Shown here: one piece after another, positions 5,572 to 12,682 of the stretch
Layout of the letters: every line of letters begins with the position of its first letter
Position numbering within the stretch: position 1 is the first letter of the stretch
NCBI RefSeq assembly: GCF_007990755.1
Contig: NZ_BJXA01000011.1
Coordinates: 62,001 to 126,000, forward strand
DNA length: 64,000 nucleotides
Source of the DNA: Nocardia ninae NBRC 108245
GTDB taxonomy: Bacteria; Actinomycetota; Actinomycetes; Mycobacteriales; Mycobacteriaceae
Reading direction: 5' to 3'
Notes under the pieces: model-generated
Database searches by the model: none
What the model was told of the DNA's origin: nothing
Seen by the model: only the letters and a program-made list of their open reading frames with translations
Translations under genes and position numbers: made by a program

Positions 5572-6915
5572 GTGTCTGAGATCGTGCGCCGTCGCTCGTC
5601 CCGTAACGCCAAGTTGGCCAAGATTCCGCTCGGCATCGCCGGGCGGGCCGCCGTGGGGTTCGGTAAGAAGCTGGCCGGTGGCGACAAGTCCGAGATCAAC
5701 GCGCAGCTGAACCAGAAGGCCGCTGAGCAGCTGTTCACCGTGCTCGGTGAGCTCAAGGGCGGCGCGATGAAGTTCGGGCAGGCCCTCAGCGTGATGGAAG
5801 CCGCGGTGCCCGAGGAGTTCGGCGAGCACTACCGCGAGGCCCTCACCAAGCTGCAGGCCGCCGCGCCGCCGATGCCCGCCGAGACCGTGCACCGGGTGCT
5901 CGACCAGCAGCTGGGCACCCAGTGGCGGCAGCGGTTCCAGGAGTTCGACGACAGCCCCGCCGCGTCGGCCAGCATCGGCCAGGTGCACAAGGCGGTCTGG
6001 TCGGACGGGCGCACCGTCGCGGTGAAGGTGCAGTACCCCGGCGCCGACGAGGCGTTGCGCGCGGACCTCAAGACGCTGAACCGGATGACCGGACTGCTCG
6101 CCTCGGTCATCCCCGGCGCCGATGTGAAGCCGATCCTGGCCGAGATCACCGAGCGCACCGAGGAAGAGCTCGACTACCGCAACGAGGCGGCCAATCAGCG
6201 CGCCTTCGCCAAGGGTTTCGACGGGCATCAGGACATCGTGGTGCCCAAGGTGGTGGCCAGCGCGCCGAAGGTGATCGTCACCGAATGGCTGGACGGCACC
6301 GCCGTCTCCTCGATCATCCAGGCCGGTGCCGCGGACCCCGAGGGCACCCGCGAGCTGCGTAACCGGGTCGCGACCCTGATGGGCCGGTTCCACTTCTCCT
6401 CTCCCGAGACCGTCGGCCTGCTGCACGCCGACCCGCATCCCGGCAACTTCATGATGCTCGCCGACGGCAAGCTCGCGGTCATCGACTTCGGCGCCTGCGC
6501 ACCGCTGCCGAACGGCTTTCCCCCCGTGCTCGGTCAGATGCTCGCGCTCTCGGTCGAGGAGCGCTTCGAGGAACTGACCGAGCTCATGTACGACAACGGC
6601 TGGGTCATTCCCGGCCGCACTGTCACCCATCAGGAGATCGCCGACTACCTGCGCCCGTTCACCGACCCGATCAAGTCCGACTCGTTCCACTTCACCCGCA
6701 AGTGGATGCAGCGGGTCGCGGGCAAGGCCTCCGACATCTCCAGCCAGGAGATGAAAACCGCACGCGCCCTGCAACTTCCGGCCGAATACGTGATGATCTT
6801 CCGGGTGCTCGGCGGCTCCGTCGGCATCCTCGCCCAGCTCGACGCCGAACTGCCGTTCATGGAACTGGTCCGCACCTGGATGCCGGGCTTCCGCGAGGAG
6901 CGCACGGTCAGCTGA
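5572..6915 (+). CDS. ABC1/AarF (UbiB-like) atypical protein kinase
   Basis: A 447-residue ABC1-family kinase-like protein. The N-terminal KxGQ motif (GGAMKFGQALS, ~residue 65), Ala-rich loop plus catalytic Lys (ASIGQVHKAVW ... TVAVKVQYPG, ~132-155), catalytic loop (HADPHPGNF, ~284) and metal-binding DFG (VIDFGA, ~304) are all present. Family members bind ATP and mostly act as ATPases tied to quinone or lipid metabolism. GTG 5572 is chosen; the frame extends to 5515 without conserved sequence. The M. tuberculosis counterpart Rv3197 lies directly before whiB7 and has been linked to macrolide tolerance. Here two further genes separate it from whiB7. Confidence 0.88.
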   Translation: MSEIVRRRSSRNAKLAKIPLGIAGRAAVGFGKKLAGGDKSEINAQLNQKAAEQLFTVLGELKGGAMKFGQALSVMEAAVPEEFGEHYREALTKLQAAAPPMPAETVHRVLDQQLGTQWRQRFQEFDDSPAASASIGQVHKAVWSDGRTVAVKVQYPGADEALRADLKTLNRMTGLLASVIPGADVKPILAEITERTEEELDYRNEAANQRAFAKGFDGHQDIVVPKVVASAPKVIVTEWLDGTAVSSIIQAGAADPEGTRELRNRVATLMGRFHFSSPETVGLLHADPHPGNFMMLADGKLAVIDFGACAPLPNGFPPVLGQMLALSVEERFEELTELMYDNGWVIPGRTVTHQEIADYLRPFTDPIKSDSFHFTRKWMQRVAGKASDISSQEMKTARALQLPAEYVMIFRVLGGSVGILAQLDAELPFMELVRTWMPGFREERTVS

Positions 6916-7011
6916 ACCGGTGACCCGGCCCGCGACGCGAATTGCGGGATGCGGGGTCGCCGGTCGATTAACCTCATCCTCGGCTCGGATCGTCTCCGTC
7001 GACGAAGGGTG

Positions 7012-7434
7012 ATGACCATGTCGCGCACCGGTCGGATAGTCGGTGTCTCGATCGGCGCGGCCGCGGCGCTGGGGGTGTCGATGGCGCCGGTCGGTGCCGA
7101 ACCCGCCGCCGAGGCGCAGTCGGTGGTCTCACTGTCGGTGGGGCCGGGAGTATCGACCGAGGTGGGTGGCAAACGCGTCGTCAGCCTCATCTGTGCACCG
7201 AAGATCGGCGGCACCCATCCGAAAGCCGAGCAGGCCTGTGCGAATTTGGCGGCGGCCGACGGCAATATCCGGGCGCTCGCCGACTTCACCGTGCCGCCGC
7301 TGTGCTCCCAGGACTTCGTTCCGGTGGTCGCCGCCATCGACGGTGTCTGGCGTGGCGAACCGATCTCCGACCATGGCTTCTTCTCGAACGAGTGCGTCTT
7401 GCACGCCACCACGGTCGCGGTGTTCGACTTCTAA
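7012..7434 (+). CDS. secreted subtilisin-inhibitor-like (SSI family) protein
   Basis: A 140-residue secreted protein. An N-terminal signal peptide (about residues 1-27: basic start, hydrophobic GVSIGAAAALGVSMA, then VGAEPA) is followed by an SSI-like domain. The four cysteines expected for the family's two disulfides are present (LICAPKIGG, EQACANL, PPLCSQD, NECVLHA), and GGTHPKAEQAC is the characteristic core. Such proteins inhibit extracellular serine proteases. ATG 7012 is preferred, with AAGGG a few nt upstream; ATG 7018 is the alternative. The frame opens earlier at 6949 without support. The gene sits between the ABC1 kinase gene and an XRE-cupin regulator gene. Confidence 0.78.
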   Translation: MTMSRTGRIVGVSIGAAAALGVSMAPVGAEPAAEAQSVVSLSVGPGVSTEVGGKRVVSLICAPKIGGTHPKAEQACANLAAADGNIRALADFTVPPLCSQDFVPVVAAIDGVWRGEPISDHGFFSNECVLHATTVAVFDF

Positions 7435-7476
7435 GCCCTGGGAAGTATTCCGATCAGCGTGATGTAAACACGCGGA

Positions 7477-7544
7477 TTCCGTACCGCACTCCTGCCACTG
7501 TGCGATGGGATCGAGAGAGGTTTTTCGGCAGGTGCGGTACGGAA
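7477..7544. repeat. long inverted repeat spanning the start of the XRE-cupin gene
   Basis: Left arm TTCCGTACCGCAC (7477-7489) plus CTGCC (7492-7496) is matched by GGCAG (7527-7531) plus GTGCGGTACGGAA (7532-7544). That is 18 paired bases with a 2-nt bulge and a 30-nt centre. It lies after the SSI gene and covers both candidate start codons of the next gene. It could be a two-site operator or an mRNA hairpin sequestering the start. Confidence 0.7.
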
Positions 7545-8155
7545 GCGACGACCAGGCGCGGTGGCCTGGACTCGGCAATGTCGTGCACGACCGCAGGCGT
7601 GCGGCTCGGCTGACGCTGGCACAACTGGCGGCGAAGACCGAATTGTCGCAATCATTTCTGAGCCAATTGGAGAACGGGCGCACCAACACGAGCCTGCGCT
7701 CGCTGCAACGCATCGCCGACGCGCTCAGCACCACGGCGACGGAGCTACTGGCGGCGGCCGACAGCACGCCCGGCTCGGTGATCGTGCGCGCGGGCGAAGG
7801 CAGCCTCGACCAAACCGATTGGGACAACGACGGTTCGGTGCGCTCACTGGTGCACGGCGCCAGGGAACTGCGAGCGCTCGAGTTCACCGGCGGAACCCGG
7901 CGGGGCGAGCGCGAATTCACCCATGGCAACGACGAATTGATCTATGTGGTCTCCGGGACGATCACGGTCGTCGCCAGTGGCGAAGAGGTGATCCTGTCCA
8001 CCGGAGACTCCTATTACTGCCCGTCGGGCGTGCGCCACCGCTGGTGGGCGCACGCCGACGACACCAGAACACTACTGCTCGCCGTTGCCGACGGGCTGAC
8101 GGTCCGCCGGGCACCCCACGGGCCACGGCGAACCGGACTTCCAAAACCCCGGTAG
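7532..8155 (+). CDS. XRE family regulator with C-terminal cupin domain
   Basis: A transcriptional regulator of about 207 residues. An N-terminal helix-turn-helix of the XRE type (LTLAQLAAKTELSQSFLSQLENGRT) is followed by a cupin (ELIYVVSGTITVVASGEE ... LSTGDSYYCPSGVRHRWWA). This layout is common in regulators of small-molecule or stress genes; the cupin may sense a ligand. Two starts are possible. ATG 7505 has no Shine-Dalgarno sequence, while GTG 7532 has GAGAGAGG 11 nt upstream and is used here. Both lie in a long inverted repeat (7477-7544), which suggests autoregulation. The target genes are unknown. Confidence 0.83.
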   Translation: MRYGSDDQARWPGLGNVVHDRRRAARLTLAQLAAKTELSQSFLSQLENGRTNTSLRSLQRIADALSTTATELLAAADSTPGSVIVRAGEGSLDQTDWDNDGSVRSLVHGARELRALEFTGGTRRGEREFTHGNDELIYVVSGTITVVASGEEVILSTGDSYYCPSGVRHRWWAHADDTRTLLLAVADGLTVRRAPHGPRRTGLPKPR

Positions 8156-8165
8156 CACAACGCAA

Positions 8166-8200
8166 ACGAGCCGCCCACCGGGCAACGGTGAGCGGTTCGT
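8166..8200 (+). terminator. bidirectional terminator between XRE-cupin gene and whiB7
   Basis: A 15-bp stem with one mismatch and one G-U pair (8166-8180 with 8186-8200, 5-nt loop) sits in the convergent gap between the XRE gene (ends 8155) and whiB7 (ends 8286). On the + strand it is followed by a pyrimidine-rich CTGCTTTCTC. Confidence 0.6.
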
Positions 8201-8285
8201 CTGCTTTCTCGTTCGTTGGCTCGGCCCGTGTCAGGACCAACCGAATCGAGCACATCGACCGGAGGGAGGGAAGCTACTCCCGGAT

Positions 8286-8609
8286 TCATGCCGGGACCGC
8301 GATCTTGCGCGGACGGCCGCGCGGGCGCTTGCGTTCGATGACGACTCCCTGTTCGAAGATTTCGCCACCCCAGACACCCCACGGCTCACGCCGATCCATG
8401 GCTGCGGTCAAGCAGCCCTTCCGGATGGGGCAACTGGCGCACAGCGCCTTGGCCTGCTCCAACTGGTTAGGGCTCTCGGCGAACCAGAGATCGGGATCTC
8501 CGGCACGGCAAGGCAGCACCTTGTTGACCTCCCTGGCCCGGGTGATGGGGGCCACGGTTCGGCATGTCACGTCAGTAGTGGCCTCTGGCCATTCCTGGGC
8601 GGTGAACAC
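8286..8609 (-). CDS. whiB7: WhiB7-type iron-sulfur transcriptional regulator
   Basis: A 107-residue WhiB protein. The four cluster ligands are Cys34 (LPCRAG), Cys57 and Cys60 (LCASC) and Cys66 (GCL), followed by the WhiB turn GVWGGE and the C-terminal AT-hook RPRGRPRK, which is diagnostic of WhiB7. WhiB7 works with the primary sigma factor at promoters with an AT-rich element just upstream of -35 and induces intrinsic resistance to ribosome-targeting drugs. Start GTG 8609 has a strong AAGGAG (8616-8621) at 6-nt spacing. The gene lies downstream of uvrD2 as in mycobacteria and has a ~550-nt leader with an upstream ORF and terminator. Confidence 0.95.
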   Translation of the reverse strand: MFTAQEWPEATTDVTCRTVAPITRAREVNKVLPCRAGDPDLWFAESPNQLEQAKALCASCPIRKGCLTAAMDRREPWGVWGGEIFEQGVVIERKRPRGRPRKIAVPA

Positions 8610-8683
8610 GTCGTTCTCCTTCAGCTCGTTGCAGCGGTTCGTTGTGTGGTCCGCGAAACCGGTGCCGGCTGGCTGAAGGGCCG

Positions 8684-8725
8684 AAAAAGATTGGCCACGG
8701 TTTCGCTTCGTGCGATCCGTGGCCA
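8684..8725 (-). terminator. intrinsic terminator (attenuator) in the whiB7 leader
   Basis: On the - strand, a perfect 9-bp stem TGGCCACGG / CCGTGGCCA (8717-8725 and 8692-8700, 16-nt loop) is followed by ATCTTTTT, with T5 at 8684-8688. It lies 22 nt after the stop of the 113-codon upstream ORF and about 75 nt before the whiB7 GTG. This is where whiB7/wblC genes are known to be controlled by premature termination. Confidence 0.85.
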
Positions 8726-8747
8726 GGAGGTCTGGGAGGGAGATTCC

Positions 8748-9089
8748 CTACCTAGGTATTCGACATCTCTGCCGAGTCCTGATCACGATCGCTTGGTTTG
8801 CGGGGCGGAGGCGTGCTGCCTGCAGATCCGCCGGCTCATAACCGGCGTCTGCTGCGATGACGACAACGTTGTCTGCCGTCGTGGTGACGACAGACGGGTG
8901 CCAGCTACCCGCGTTGGGCTTGTCCTGCATGACGGCGCAGCCATGGGCATGCATGGGCGCGAGTTGCGCCTGCGTGCCGAACGCACCGATTTCGGACAGA
9001 CCGATCCCCTGCAAGGCGAGGATCCCCCGGGAGGCCGACATGGGTGTATTCACCGCAACGTCGCTGCCGCTGAAGTAATTGCTGTTCAC
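8748..9089 (-). CDS. leader ORF (uORF) of whiB7, 113 codons
   Basis: A 113-residue reading frame starting at GTG 9089 with a very strong Shine-Dalgarno GGAGGGAGG (9095-9103) at 5-nt spacing; it begins MNSNYFSGSDVAVNT. I recognise no domain. Most of the frame has GC-rich third positions, but the final ten codons are AGG ACT CGG CAG AGA TGT CGA ATA CCT AGG, a concentration of codons that are rare in such genomes. The TAG stop (8748-8750) is 22 nt before the leader terminator. The likely role is a translation-rate sensor for whiB7 attenuation rather than a functional protein. The frame continues upstream to a GTG or TTG near 9191, but the strong RBS favours 9089. Confidence 0.65.
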   Translation of the reverse strand: MNSNYFSGSDVAVNTPMSASRGILALQGIGLSEIGAFGTQAQLAPMHAHGCAVMQDKPNAGSWHPSVVTTTADNVVVIAADAGYEPADLQAARLRPANQAIVIRTRQRCRIPR

Positions 9090-9162
9090 GTCTGCCTCCC
9101 TCCATAACTCGTTGTGTCTGATGACTGTGCGCGCCGGGATGACCTCCCGGTGCGTAGAACCC

Positions 9163-9199
9163 ACCATAGGCAAGTTCGCCAAACGGTACAACCTATTTT
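9163..9199 (-). promoter_or_regulatory. whiB7 promoter with AT-rich WhiB7-type box
   Basis: Read on the - strand: AAAATAGG (9192-9199) directly followed by TTGTAC (-35, 9186-9191), a 17-bp spacer and TATGGT (-10, 9163-9168). The AT-rich run touching the -35 element is the arrangement expected of WhiB7-activated promoters, consistent with autoregulation. It begins at the last bases of uvrD2. Transcription would start near 9156, giving a leader of ~547 nt. Confidence 0.65.
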
Positions 9200-11374
9200 C
9201 TACCTGCGGTTTTGGGGTCTTGCGCGCAGCCGTGAAGCGATGATCGCGAGCACGTCGGCGCCGTACTGTTCGAGCTTCTTCGCGCCGATCCCGGCGATCG
9301 CGGCCAGCGCGGCGTCGTCACCTGGGAGTTGTTCGGCGATGGCGGTCAGCGTGGTGTCGGTGAACACCACGAATTCGCGCACCTGCAACGCCTGCGCCTT
9401 CTCGGCGCGCCACTCCTGCAGTGCCACCAACAGCTCGGCGTCGAGGTCCGCCGGACAACGCCGACAGCGGCCGAGCATAGTCGCATAGGTGCCGATGAGT
9501 GGCTTCGCACACACTCGGCAGGTGGGGCGGATGCCTTTCGCGGTCTCCGAGACCGGCACCGCGATCCGGGAAGCCGGGGAATCATCGGGCACGAGGCCGT
9601 TGAGGAACCGAGATCGGCGCCGGGTGCGCCGCTTGCCCTCACCGCGGGCCAGCGCCCAGGACAGCTGCAGATGTACCCGCGCCCTGGTCACGCCGACGTA
9701 GAGCAGCCGCCGTTCCTCTTCCAGTTTCGCCTCGTCGCCGACCGAGCCGTCGTCGGCGAGCACGTGCGCGATCGGCAGGGTGCCGTCGGCGACCCCGACC
9801 AGGAAGACCGCGTCCCACTCCAGCCCCTTGGCGGCGTGCAGCGAGGCGAGCGTGACGCCCTGCACGGTCGGTGGGTGCCGCGCCTCGGTCCGGGCGGCCA
9901 GCTCACGCAGCAGGCCGGGCAGGTCGAGCTTCTCGTCGTGCTCGACCAGTTCCTCGGTCAGGGTGACCAGCGCGACGAGCGAGGCCCATTTCTCCCTGGC
10001 CTGGACACCGGCCGGTTCGGCCGTGGTCAGGCCGAGCGGGGCCAGCACCGCGCGCACCAGGGTGACCAGCGCGGCGCCGCTGCGCGCCTCGCCGGGCAGG
10101 TCGTCACGCGAGGCGGCCTGGCGCAACGCCGAAACAGCCTGCCTGACTTCGGCACGCGAGAAGAAGCCTTCACCGCCGCGCACCTGATAGGGGATGCCGC
10201 GTTCGGTGAGCGCCTGCTCATAGCTCTCGGACTGCGCGTTGATCCGGTAGAGCACGGCGATCTCGGCGGCGGGCGTGCCCGCATCGATCAGCCGCTTGAT
10301 CGACTTGGCCACCGCGGCGGCCTCGGCGGGGCCGTCCTCGAACTCGGCGAAGACCGGCTCGGGTCCGTCCGGGCGCTGGCCGATCAGTTGCAGCCGGGTG
10401 CCCGCGATGCGGCCCCGTGCCACACCGATCACCCGGTTCGCCAGCGACACCACCTGCGGGGTCGAGCGGTAGTCGCGTTCCAGGCGGACCACGGTGGCGT
10501 CGGGGAAGCGGCGGGAAAAGTCGAGCAGGTAGCCGGGGGTCGCGCCCGTGAACGAGTAGATCGTCTGGTTGGCGTCGCCGACCACGGTCAGGTCGTCGCG
10601 GTCGCCGAGCCAGGCGTCGAGCACGCGCTGCTGCAGCGGGGTGACGTCCTGGTATTCGTCGACGACGAAACTGCGATAGCGGCCGCGGAATTCGTCGGCC
10701 ACCGCCGGATAGTCCTCCAGCGCCGCCGCGGTGTGCAGCAGCAGATCGTCGAAGTCGAGCAGCAGTCCGTCCGGCGTGGCCTTGAGCTTCTCGTAGCCCG
10801 CGTAGACCTCGGCGACCCGTAGCGCGTCGTACGGCGTCTCGCGACGGTTCTTGGCCACCGCCGCCGGATAGTCCTCGGGGGCGATGAGCGAGGCCTTCGC
10901 CCACTCGATTTCGCTCAGCAGGTCACGCACGCTGTCGGTGGCCGAGGAGAGCCCGGCCCGGTTCGCCGCCTGCGCGACGATCGGGAACTTGCCGTCGATC
11001 AGCCGCCACGGCACGTCGCCGACGATCTGCGGCCAGAAGTATTTGAGCTGGCGCAGCGCGGCCGCGTGGAAGGTGCGCGCCTGCACCTGGTTCGCGTCAC
11101 CACCCAGGCCGAGGGCGCGCAACCGGCTGCGCAGCTCCCCCGCCGCCCGTGCGGTGAAGGTCACCGCCAGCACCTGATCGGCCTTCACGTGTCCCGCGGA
11201 GACCAGGTGCGCGATGCGATGGGTGATGGTCCTGGTCTTGCCGGTGCCCGCCCCCGCGAGTACGCACACCGGACCCCGTGGCGCGCGCACGGCGGCGGCC
11301 TGTTCGGGGTCGAGCGAGTCCAGCTCGAGGCCGGTCGGTCGGTGTGTACTGGTTGACGACACGGCACCCATCAT
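9200..11374 (-). CDS. uvrD2: ATP-dependent DNA helicase UvrD2
   Basis: A 724-residue superfamily 1 helicase. Walker [10 protein letters not shown], Walker [14 protein letters not shown], motif [16 protein letters not shown] and motif [10 protein letters not shown] are intact. The C-terminal part has the tetracysteine element typical of UvrD2 (CRVCAKPL ... CRRCPADL), then an HRDC domain ending [23 protein letters not shown]. It unwinds DNA 3'-5' in repair and replication. Start ATG 11374 (or the adjacent ATG 11371) is chosen over the upstream 11431, as the extension lacks family character. It is divergent from the LtrA-family gene with ~50 bp between starts. Confidence 0.95.
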
Positions 11375-11422
11375 GACAGTGAGCGCCGACAACTCACGCG
11401 GCCCGCGCAATACTCTCGCCTC

Positions 11423-12682
11423 GTGGCACACGACACGCCGTCAACGGACGCACAACCGACCGACCGGCACGCGACCTGGATGGAACTGTTCTTCGACCTG
11501 GTCGCGGTCGCCGGGATCGGCCAGCTCACCCACCTGCTGCACCGTGGGCCCTCGCTCGGCGACTTCGGCCTGTATCTGCTGCTCTACCTGGCCTTCTGGA
11601 CGGCCTGGGCATGCATGATGCTGTACGGCAACATCGCGCGCGACCAGACCAGGATCCGGCTGATGCTGGCGGCGATGCTCGGCCTCGGCGTGATGGCGAG
11701 CGCGGTCGCGGGGATTCCGGACCGGCACGCGACCACCTTCGCGGCGGTCTACGTGCTCGTGCGCATGGTCGCCGCGCAGGTCTGGGGCCGCGGCACGCTG
11801 GTGGTCGACTGGCCGATCGCGCAACTGTCCGTCGGTGTATTGCCGTGGATCGTCTCGCTGTGGGTGCCCGAGCCGTGGAAGTACGGCCTCTGGGCGCTGG
11901 GCCTCGCGCTGGATCTGTGGCTGATGTTCGCGATGACCGGCGAGCGGATGCTGGCAGGTGCGCAGGAGGCGATCGATCGCAGACTGGGCAACTCGCGCCG
12001 GTTCCGGAATGTCGAGCCGCCGAAAATCAAGGCACTGCATGCCGATTCGGCGCATCTCGGCGAACGCCTCGGGCTGTACGTGATCATCGTGCTCGGCGAG
12101 GGTGTCATCGCGGTGATCGCCGCCGTGGGCGGCGTGCGGTGGCACGCACCGGTGCTCGCCCTCGGCTTCGGCGCGTTCGTGGTCCTGGCGAGCCTGTGGG
12201 CGCTCACCCTGATGTACGGCTTCGTGCCACGCCTGATGACCGGTATCGACCCGGACGGCTCGCTACCGAGGCAACACGCGATGGCGATGCACTGCTGGAT
12301 CACCGCCGCGATCGCCACCATCACCGCGGGTCTCGGGCTGGCCGTCGAGCATGCGGACGGGCACGTGTCCACCGGGATCGGGTGGTCGCTCGGTGGCGGC
12401 GCGGCCGCGTACTTCGTGATCACCGGACTCGGCGGCGCGCGCAGCGGGGCGGGGTGGCGCTGGATGCTGACCTGGCCGCTGCCGTGTGCGGTGCTCGCGG
12501 TGCTGCTCGGCGCGTTCGGTCCGCACCTCGGGGCGCTCGGACTGGTGTACGGCGTGGTGGCGCTGTTCCTGTGGGCGGTGCTGTGCCAGACGTATGCCGC
12601 AGGGCAGTGGGGCCTCGGATCCGATCGCCGCAGGCGGTGGCGGCGGCCGAACCACGGTCTCGCGATCGACGAGATGCTATAG
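11423..12682 (+). CDS. low temperature requirement protein A (LtrA) family membrane protein
   Basis: A 419-residue integral membrane protein of the LtrA family (PF06772). The N-terminal [22 protein letters not shown] is the family signature, followed by about ten hydrophobic segments. The central soluble loop contains [28 protein letters not shown], the second conserved block. The function is unknown beyond an association with growth at low temperature in Listeria. GTG 11423 has no Shine-Dalgarno; TACTCT at 11411-11416 lies exactly 6 nt before it, suggesting a leaderless mRNA. Its end overlaps the convergent MarR gene by 6 bp. Confidence 0.85.

Follow-up and report, generated by a model that had tools for sequence, protein, structure and literature searches.

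The leader of whiB7 was analyzed in a 64,000-nucleotide (nt) stretch of DNA (the window) from contig NZ_BJXA01000011.1 of Nocardia ninae NBRC 108245. Leader and gene are on the − strand, with the leader lying between a UvrD-type helicase gene that carries an HRDC domain (9200–11431) and whiB7 (8286–8609). It holds a 113-codon upstream open reading frame (uORF) followed by a putative intrinsic terminator. We consider it likely that the leader is a ribosome-mediated transcription attenuator of the whiB7/wblC type, in which most of the conserved parts of the long uORF would serve as cis-acting RNA. The locus comprises:

9163–9199, − strand: whiB7 promoter, with AAAATAGG at 9199–9192, TTGTAC at 9191–9186, a 17-nt spacer and TATGGT at 9168–9163 (from sequence and genus conservation)
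9095–9103, − strand: Shine-Dalgarno (SD) sequence of the uORF, GGAGGGAGG; 9100–9094 is the 5′ strand of helix P2
8748–9089, − strand: uORF of 113 codons, GTG start at 9089, TAG stop at 8750–8748 (from sequence; conserved across the genus)
8684–8725, − strand: intrinsic terminator, a 9-bp stem with a 4-bp extension, then T5 at 8688–8684 (from folding z and conservation)
8621–8616, − strand: whiB7 ribosome binding site AAGGAG (read from sequence)
8286–8609, − strand: whiB7, 107 amino acids, GTG start at 8609 (Pfam WhiB, E = 3.3e-16)

The nearest named WhiB7, from the Nocardia suismassiliense locus, is 99% identical to the product; comparison with NCBIfam profiles was without match, and no WhiB7 model was matched. 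By the Pfam assignment, this identity and the UvrD-type helicase neighbour, the leader directly precedes a whiB7 ortholog. An earlier note on this DNA, made from the letters alone, had described a TTGTAC-N17-TATGGT promoter with an upstream element, a 113-codon SD-led uORF ending in TAG, a perfect 9-bp hairpin with T5, and the whiB7 ribosome binding site. All were found where it had placed them, and its layout of whiB7/wblC attenuation, a long SD-led uORF and then a terminator before whiB7, was recovered. Generic promoter and terminator scans detected neither element of the leader, so both calls rest on sequence, folding and conservation. An in-frame TTG at 9191 offers a longer alternative start for the uORF. 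Covariance models from Rfam gave 0 matches at E ≤ 1 on 6000–12000 of the window, and a known Rfam element was rejected as the identity of the leader.

All 148 genomes searched within the genus gave some match, and 147 held an ortholog-level whiB7; G054 was excluded, its best whiB7 match (E = 7.1e-9) being below that level. The alignments took in 146 leaders, which after merging of identical rows gave 143 distinct uORFs and 133 distinct tails, and the 147th leader (G068) was checked apart. The uORF was present in all 147 genomes. An SD-led uORF of 86–139 codons could be picked in 146/146 aligned leaders, ending in TAG (136), TAA (9) or TGA (1), and the G068 leader had the same layout with a 117-codon uORF. 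The promoter pattern AAAAT-N(0–6)-TTG was likewise found in 146/146, 494–670 nt upstream of the whiB7 start. In the terminator, TGGCCACGG (8725–8717) pairs with CCGTGGCCA (8700–8692), with an inner extension TCGC:GCGA. The hairpin of the window's own sequence folded at −23.6 kcal/mol (z −6.1); 8 of the 9 outer-stem pairs formed in 133/133 distinct aligned rows, and the outermost U-A in 122.

Three boxes of the uORF peptide were conserved over the genus: SASRGILALQGxGLS, QDKPxxGW and a C-terminal ATVIRxRxRCRxR. Their synonymous sites were nearly invariant among the 143 distinct uORFs, with Ser (codon 20) as TCC and Val as GTG in 143/143, Ala as GCG in 140/140 Ala rows and Leu as CTC in 135/135 Leu rows. 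The same amino acids used several codons outside the boxes of the same uORFs.

Helices within the uORF and around the terminator

Pairing candidates were drawn from projected base-pair probabilities of whole leaders and then counted helix by helix, as cells over 143 rows. As controls, one strand was slid by 1–3 columns, or partners were shuffled within columns (300 shuffles for P2, P3, P4 and PT). The tail of the uORF and the terminator region hold the antiterminator (AT), the terminator (T) and helices H1, H2 and PT:

8777–8792, − strand: segment 1, the 5′ strand of AT, GCGATCGTGATCAGGA, uORF codons 100–105 (from pairing counts, free fold and codon invariance)
8760–8775, − strand: hairpin H1, TCGGCA-GAGA-TGTCGA, spanning some of the rare codons (from pairing counts and local fold z)
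8728–8753, − strand: helix H2 around the stop codon, AGGTAGGG...CCC.GACC(T) (two sub-helices, 92.9% and 75.3% paired)
8712–8728, − strand: segment 2, the 3′ strand of AT, TCCTGGCCACGGATCGC, which includes the terminator 5′ arm (from pairing counts and free fold)
8706–8692, − strand: segment 3, the terminator 3′ arm, pairing with segment 2 (T) or segment 4 (PT)
8653–8661, − strand: segment 4, CGGTTTCGC, complementary to 8706–8698, helix PT (97.7% of 1241 cells paired; 19–54% when slid)

Over the 133 distinct leaders, AT, H1 and H2 were together paired in 91.0% of 3528 cells, compared to 29–47% with a strand slid. Double-change cells numbered 33 against 11.6 ± 3.1 after shuffling, and 0/500 shuffles reached that count. 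AT was also formed in the unconstrained fold of the window's own sequence (z −3.3), where it enclosed H1 and an H2-like hairpin, with slightly different pairing in the H2 region. Local folding of H1 gave a z below −1 in 31/36 sampled same-genus tails (every fourth row, 36 of 143) versus 2/36 at a position 20 codons upstream. Segment 1 codons GCG, GTG and ATC were without synonymous variation where Ala (140 rows), Val (143) and Ile (100) stand. Complementarity and in silico folding both predict that the antiterminator is mutually exclusive with the terminator.

Further pairing involves the 5′ part of the uORF and its SD:

9029–9035, − strand: anti-SD GCCTCCC, uORF codons 19–21, the 3′ strand of P2 (98.9% of 1001 cells paired; 30–74% when slid)
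9003–9024, − strand: hairpin P3, GATCCTC (9024–9018) with GGGGATC (9009–9003) (96.7% of 1001 cells paired)
8994–9002, − strand: 5′ strand of P4, GGTCTGTCC (93.6% of 1141 cells paired; 19–50% when slid; in the window's free fold)
8917–8925, − strand: 3′ strand of P4, GGACAAGCC, the 'QDKP' box of the uORF (from pairing counts and free fold)

The invariant TCC of codon 20 (143/143 uORFs) lies within the anti-SD, and pair SD-14:c65.1 of P2 was kept in 141/143 rows. Slid controls for P2, P3, P4 and PT gave 19–74% pairing, all below the observed values. Shuffling within columns gave 98.2, 93.0, 92.4 and 97.3%, respectively, and reached the observed values in 0/300. The P3 pair c69.1:c92.2, A-U in 70 and G-C in 56 of 143 rows, had the highest mutual information (MI) after average product correction among 417 columns compared. 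On a tree built from neighbouring coding DNA, it showed about 4 same-way co-changes, 0 opposite and 1 without. For most of the remaining high-MI column pairs, shared ancestry is the apparent cause. P2, P3 and P4 were all present in the unconstrained fold of the window's own sequence (z −2.7). Complementarity to the SD of at least 7 nt was found in 105/143 uORFs of the genus versus 17% after codon shuffling, and the anti-SD emerges about 74–125 nt after the SD over the genus.

Leaders outside Nocardia

Forty leaders were chosen from 201 genomes to cover many genera of the family; 38 had a usable uORF tail and 34 were used for SD complementarity. The CCACGG..CCGTGG terminator was found in 34/40 of these leaders, and a complementary CCGTG arm lay upstream in 25/34 of those bearing it, versus 17% when shuffled. 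Judged by these matches, the attenuator core is present in much of the family. In two leaders from other genera (L161 and L168) both AT strands share extra pairs, GCGATTC-CCGTG with CACGG-N-GAATCGC, so outside the genus the two AT strands do vary together. The GAATCGC type was found in 0/16 named Mycobacterium loci, and a mycobacterial assignment of these two leaders was dropped. The CCACGG..CCGTGG stem itself was seen in 15/16 Mycobacterium loci, with TCCGTG upstream of the stem or of its expected place in 10/16, a count taken with no shuffled control. The model R1 matched 23/40 family leaders and, in the window's own genome, the whiB7 leader only.

Among 27 leaders read at order level, a CCACGG-type stem was present in 4 (L201, L209, L210 and L212), all from the window's own family; a further match in L193 is apparently spurious. 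Leaders of related families (L189–L215) have uORFs that reach 120 codons, and in place of GGCCACGG most carry stems of the GGCCGCGG type. In several other genera of the family (L147–L186) another hairpin could be formed by the final codons directly ahead of the stop (CCGAAG..CTTCGG-TAG or CCGAG..CTCGG-TAG); it is perhaps a counterpart of H1.

The P2-P3-P4 region was alignable only within Nocardia. Complementarity to the SD of at least 7 nt occurred in 12/34 unaligned leaders of other genera versus 8% after codon shuffling, a suggestive difference. A pattern search for a P3-like hairpin in the 40 family leaders gave one match (L156), apparently accidental; L151 keeps CAGGGGACC, which resembles the P3 3′ strand.

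Proposed attenuation mechanism

Positions, complementarity, conservation and segment order were read from the sequence; transcription, translation, termination, kinetic order and the effect of a gate are what we infer. Four alternating segments would decide the outcome, with 1:2 forming AT, 2:3 forming T and 3:4 forming PT. H1 and H2 would sit inside the AT-closed loop and draw the AT arms together. A ribosome translating into the last codons would melt AT and H1, upon which T could form and transcription would stop. If the uORF were untranslated, or a ribosome stalled in its first ~94 codons, AT would form first on the nascent RNA and whiB7 would be transcribed. Segment 4 emerges after the T tract, and PT would exist only in readthrough RNA, which it could do no more than lock. 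Under this model, induction should depend on no specific stall codon: a stall or non-initiation anywhere before about codon 94 should be enough, and a response to drugs of many classes would be accounted for.

Further upstream, P2 would occlude the uORF SD, with P3 and P4 following. The SD would close if no ribosome had loaded before the anti-SD emerged, and slow initiation would then also give readthrough. With the anti-SD about 74–125 nt behind the SD, the first ribosome may have a limited time in which to load. An extra gate on uORF initiation is probable, and it is the least secure step of the mechanism. A more ambitious reading takes the whole uORF as a dual-coding riboregulator with two gates, P2-P3-P4 testing timely initiation and AT/T/PT testing completion, and with the peptide as a by-product. 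This we offer tentatively, leaning slightly to the side of doubt. If it were true, whiB7 would respond to lost initiation as well as to elongation stalls, and RNA structure could be what rare codons and 'conserved motifs' mark in uORFs of this kind.

Several observations weigh against the attenuator and its gate. The T tract is short, and the terminator was missed by the generic scan. H2 is the weakest helix, one of its pairs being absent in 72/128 rows; in H1 the innermost pair is absent in 67/128, and H1-like folding was seen in only 11/38 tails of other genera. The AT core is near-invariant within the genus and shows no covariation there (190/300 shuffles equal it), while tree-aware counts for pairs other than that in P3 gave 0 to 2 same-way changes, none opposite, and no test reached 0.05. 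The margin of P2, P3, P4 and PT over the partner-shuffle control is small, and no experimental precedent for an SD gate was seen. Across 148 genomes of the class, R1 matched only 3 at E ≤ 0.01, all of its own genus. At equilibrium, T folded in 145/146 leaders and, with ribosome masks, at every position in the 5 leaders folded in this way. Masked equilibrium folding was uninformative as a test of the switch, and since T wins at equilibrium, an AT switch must act kinetically, before segment 3 emerges. In nascent folds the terminator 5′ arm paired upstream in 146/146 leaders, but still did so in 95/192 with shuffled upstream sequence; nascent folding was rejected as proof of AT and is not counted as evidence.

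The same P2-P3-P4 helices might instead protect an untranslated leader from Rho or RNases, or pace RNA polymerase. An untranslated stretch of ~340 nt would presumably be exposed to Rho, and the compact P3 could pause the polymerase. However, P2 uses the exact letters of the SD, with SD-14:c65.1 kept as noted above, and neither role would need the SD. We regard this explanation of the helices as unlikely, albeit with an appreciable chance of being correct.

Rare codons, the uORF peptide and known attenuators

Codon usage was referenced to 31 long open reading frames of the window that are rich in G and C at third codon positions (14,714 codons), with codons below 5 per 1000 taken as rare. The last ten uORF codons are AGG ACT CGG CAG AGA TGT CGA ATA CCT AGG. 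The earlier note had called most of them rare; 7/10 are, with CGG (26/1000), CAG (23/1000) and CGA (5.6/1000) outside that class. Seven rare codons in ten occurred in 0/14,435 ten-codon windows of the 31 reading frames and in 0/200,000 synonymous resamplings. The cluster is real and far beyond chance.

Four of the seven rare codons contribute letters to conserved helices: AGG-104 to AT, ACT and TGT to H1, and AGG-113, together with the stop, to H2. In the window's own fold, part of CCT is paired as well. AGA makes up the loop of H1; ATA, seen in 8/133 distinct rows, is left unpaired. Scored throughout by the codon usage of the window, the 143 distinct uORFs had from 2 to 7 rare codons among the last ten, with 4 or fewer in 65/143. 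The earlier note had suggested aligning the uORF across Nocardia to ask whether rare codons persist as amino acids drift; rarity was not kept, amino acids drift too (T/I/S/N at the second AT codon (101), Cys or Ser, and a tail RPGPG in one clade), and pairing persists. An A-U to G-C swap in H1 (16 rows) turns CGA into the common CGG, as does a U-A to C-G swap of the outer H1 pair (7 rows). In the L063–L077 clade H1 is kept as CGGC..GCCG while the codons become CGG, CCC, CAC, CGC or AGC. The tail in and around this clade is poorer in Arg and made mostly of common codons (AGG CGG CCC CAC CGC CGA CCA), providing a natural contrast for codon effects.

One element of the tail weighs against a pure pairing account. 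The H1-loop codon, five before the stop, is AGA in 56, CGA in 52, AGG in 8 and AAA in 8 rows (124/143), and pairing does not explain this uncommon, mostly Arg codon, which leaves a role for slow decoding open. Pairing might then set most letters while slow decoding is also useful, with a ribosome lingering at codons 104–109, on segment 1, to secure termination in normal growth. The pause codons lie directly 3′ of segment 1, and every uORF (143/143) has at least 2 rare codons among its last 10. Against this, codon rarity varies where pairing permits, and the clade with common codons keeps the leader. We judge such a combined role rather unlikely.

The proposal of the earlier note, that the tail is a selected slow zone where a stalled ribosome is held over the hairpin and induces whiB7, found little support. 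In its favour are the extreme cluster in the window, a mean of 4.8 rare codons in the last ten versus 1.2 per ten further up over the 143 uORFs, the rarity of the H1-loop codon, and Arg at 1, 3, 5, 7 and 9 codons before the stop in 123–142/143 rows each, a pattern that mostly tracks pairing and is partly lost in one clade. However, nearly half of the uORFs (65/143) are down to 2–4 rare codons while the helices stay, and compensatory swaps make codons commoner. The geometry is also adverse. With an assumed footprint of ~30 nt, a ribosome whose P site holds the last sense codon would reach ~8738, short of the hairpin at 8725, and one at codons 104–109 would cover part of the AT arm (8792–8777) and not the hairpin. 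Held there, it would sit on segment 1 and by the usual logic favour termination, which reverses the proposed geometry. A rare-codon stall zone was rejected as the main feature, with room left by the H1-loop codon, and as a cause of induction it is improbable.

A working or arrest peptide is more improbable still and was rejected: its motifs (SASRGILALQGxGLS, QDKPxxGW, RxRxRxR) are kept as amino acid sequence throughout the genus, but their synonymous sites hardly vary, contrary to the codon-independent conservation of an arrest peptide, substitutions track the pairing (I/V with I/T; T/I/S/N at codon 101), one clade has the tail RPGPG, Cys and Ser interchange, and neither Pfam nor NCBIfam gave a match for the peptide at E ≤ 0.01.

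Compared to a codon-based ribosome trap, the leader looks more like an elaborated form of a known ribosome-sensing switch. A whiB7/wblC uORF attenuator in mycobacteria and Streptomyces is reportedly the subject of Lee, Lee and Roe (2022), a work known here through citing papers only. As described in the papers available in part, whiB7/wblC leaders show uORF-dependent termination, a drug-favoured antiterminator, and readthrough induced by drugs and starvation (PMC11550727, PMC9618640), and mycobacterial whiB7 has an unannotated uORF and a stem-loop (Dinan et al. 2014, PMC4128351). The Nocardia leader has in common with them the WhiB7 target, an SD-led uORF, a Rho-independent terminator between uORF and gene and an alternative antiterminator; a response to many ribosome drugs and to starvation would be expected by analogy. 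Unlike those leaders as the citing papers describe them, it has a 113-codon uORF with P2-P3-P4 over its own SD, H1 and H2 inside the antiterminator, and a fourth segment after the T tract. Going by these sequence features, the leader is one of the whiB7/wblC attenuators already known, in a variant form whose uORF is structured and pairs with itself.

Other systems offer partial parallels, as far as the portions seen of the cited papers describe them. Attenuators of the trp type (M. tuberculosis ilvB1, PMC13236596) likewise have alternating segments, with ribosome position selecting antiterminator or terminator. In the Nocardia leader no regulated amino acid is evident, though Arg codons recur in the tail as described above, and segment 1 lies within the coding region, 30–45 nt upstream of the final base of the stop. 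Escherichia coli toiL (PMC12121999) and Streptomyces coelicolor are5sc/tiaA (PMC12421871) also use a uORF that senses translation inhibitors and frees a downstream gene, whereas the Nocardia uORF has its own SD paired. Induction of whiB7 by starvation is reported in PMC12121999, which in the part seen states that antibiotic stalling within the whiB7 uORF was never tested; the base-pairing model bears on that question. Among the literature matches listed, read at the level of titles and abstract openings and with most subscription journals outside coverage, none concerned the Nocardia leader or self-pairing of its uORF SD. Attenuation is known in kind, and the structured, self-pairing uORF appears to be a variant of it. 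With this model, an observation on codon usage becomes one on base pairing, and rare-codon clusters in leader reading frames may be RNA structure.

Three minor features were noted at the edges of the locus. A GC-rich hairpin near the predicted transcript start (9131–9153, − strand), GC-A-CCGGGA-GGTCA-TCCCGG-C-GC, was seen by folding; L106 folds alike, L007 and L064 differently, and the hairpin is possibly a 5′ stabiliser. Downstream of whiB7, the product of a convergent gene (7505–8155, + strand) is a regulator of the helix-turn-helix/cupin type, with Pfam matches to HTH_3 and Cupin_2. An extended inverted repeat spotted by eye behind whiB7 (8164–8199, − strand; CGAACCGCTCACCG...CGGTGGGCGGCTCG, then TTT) is probably the terminator between the two genes.
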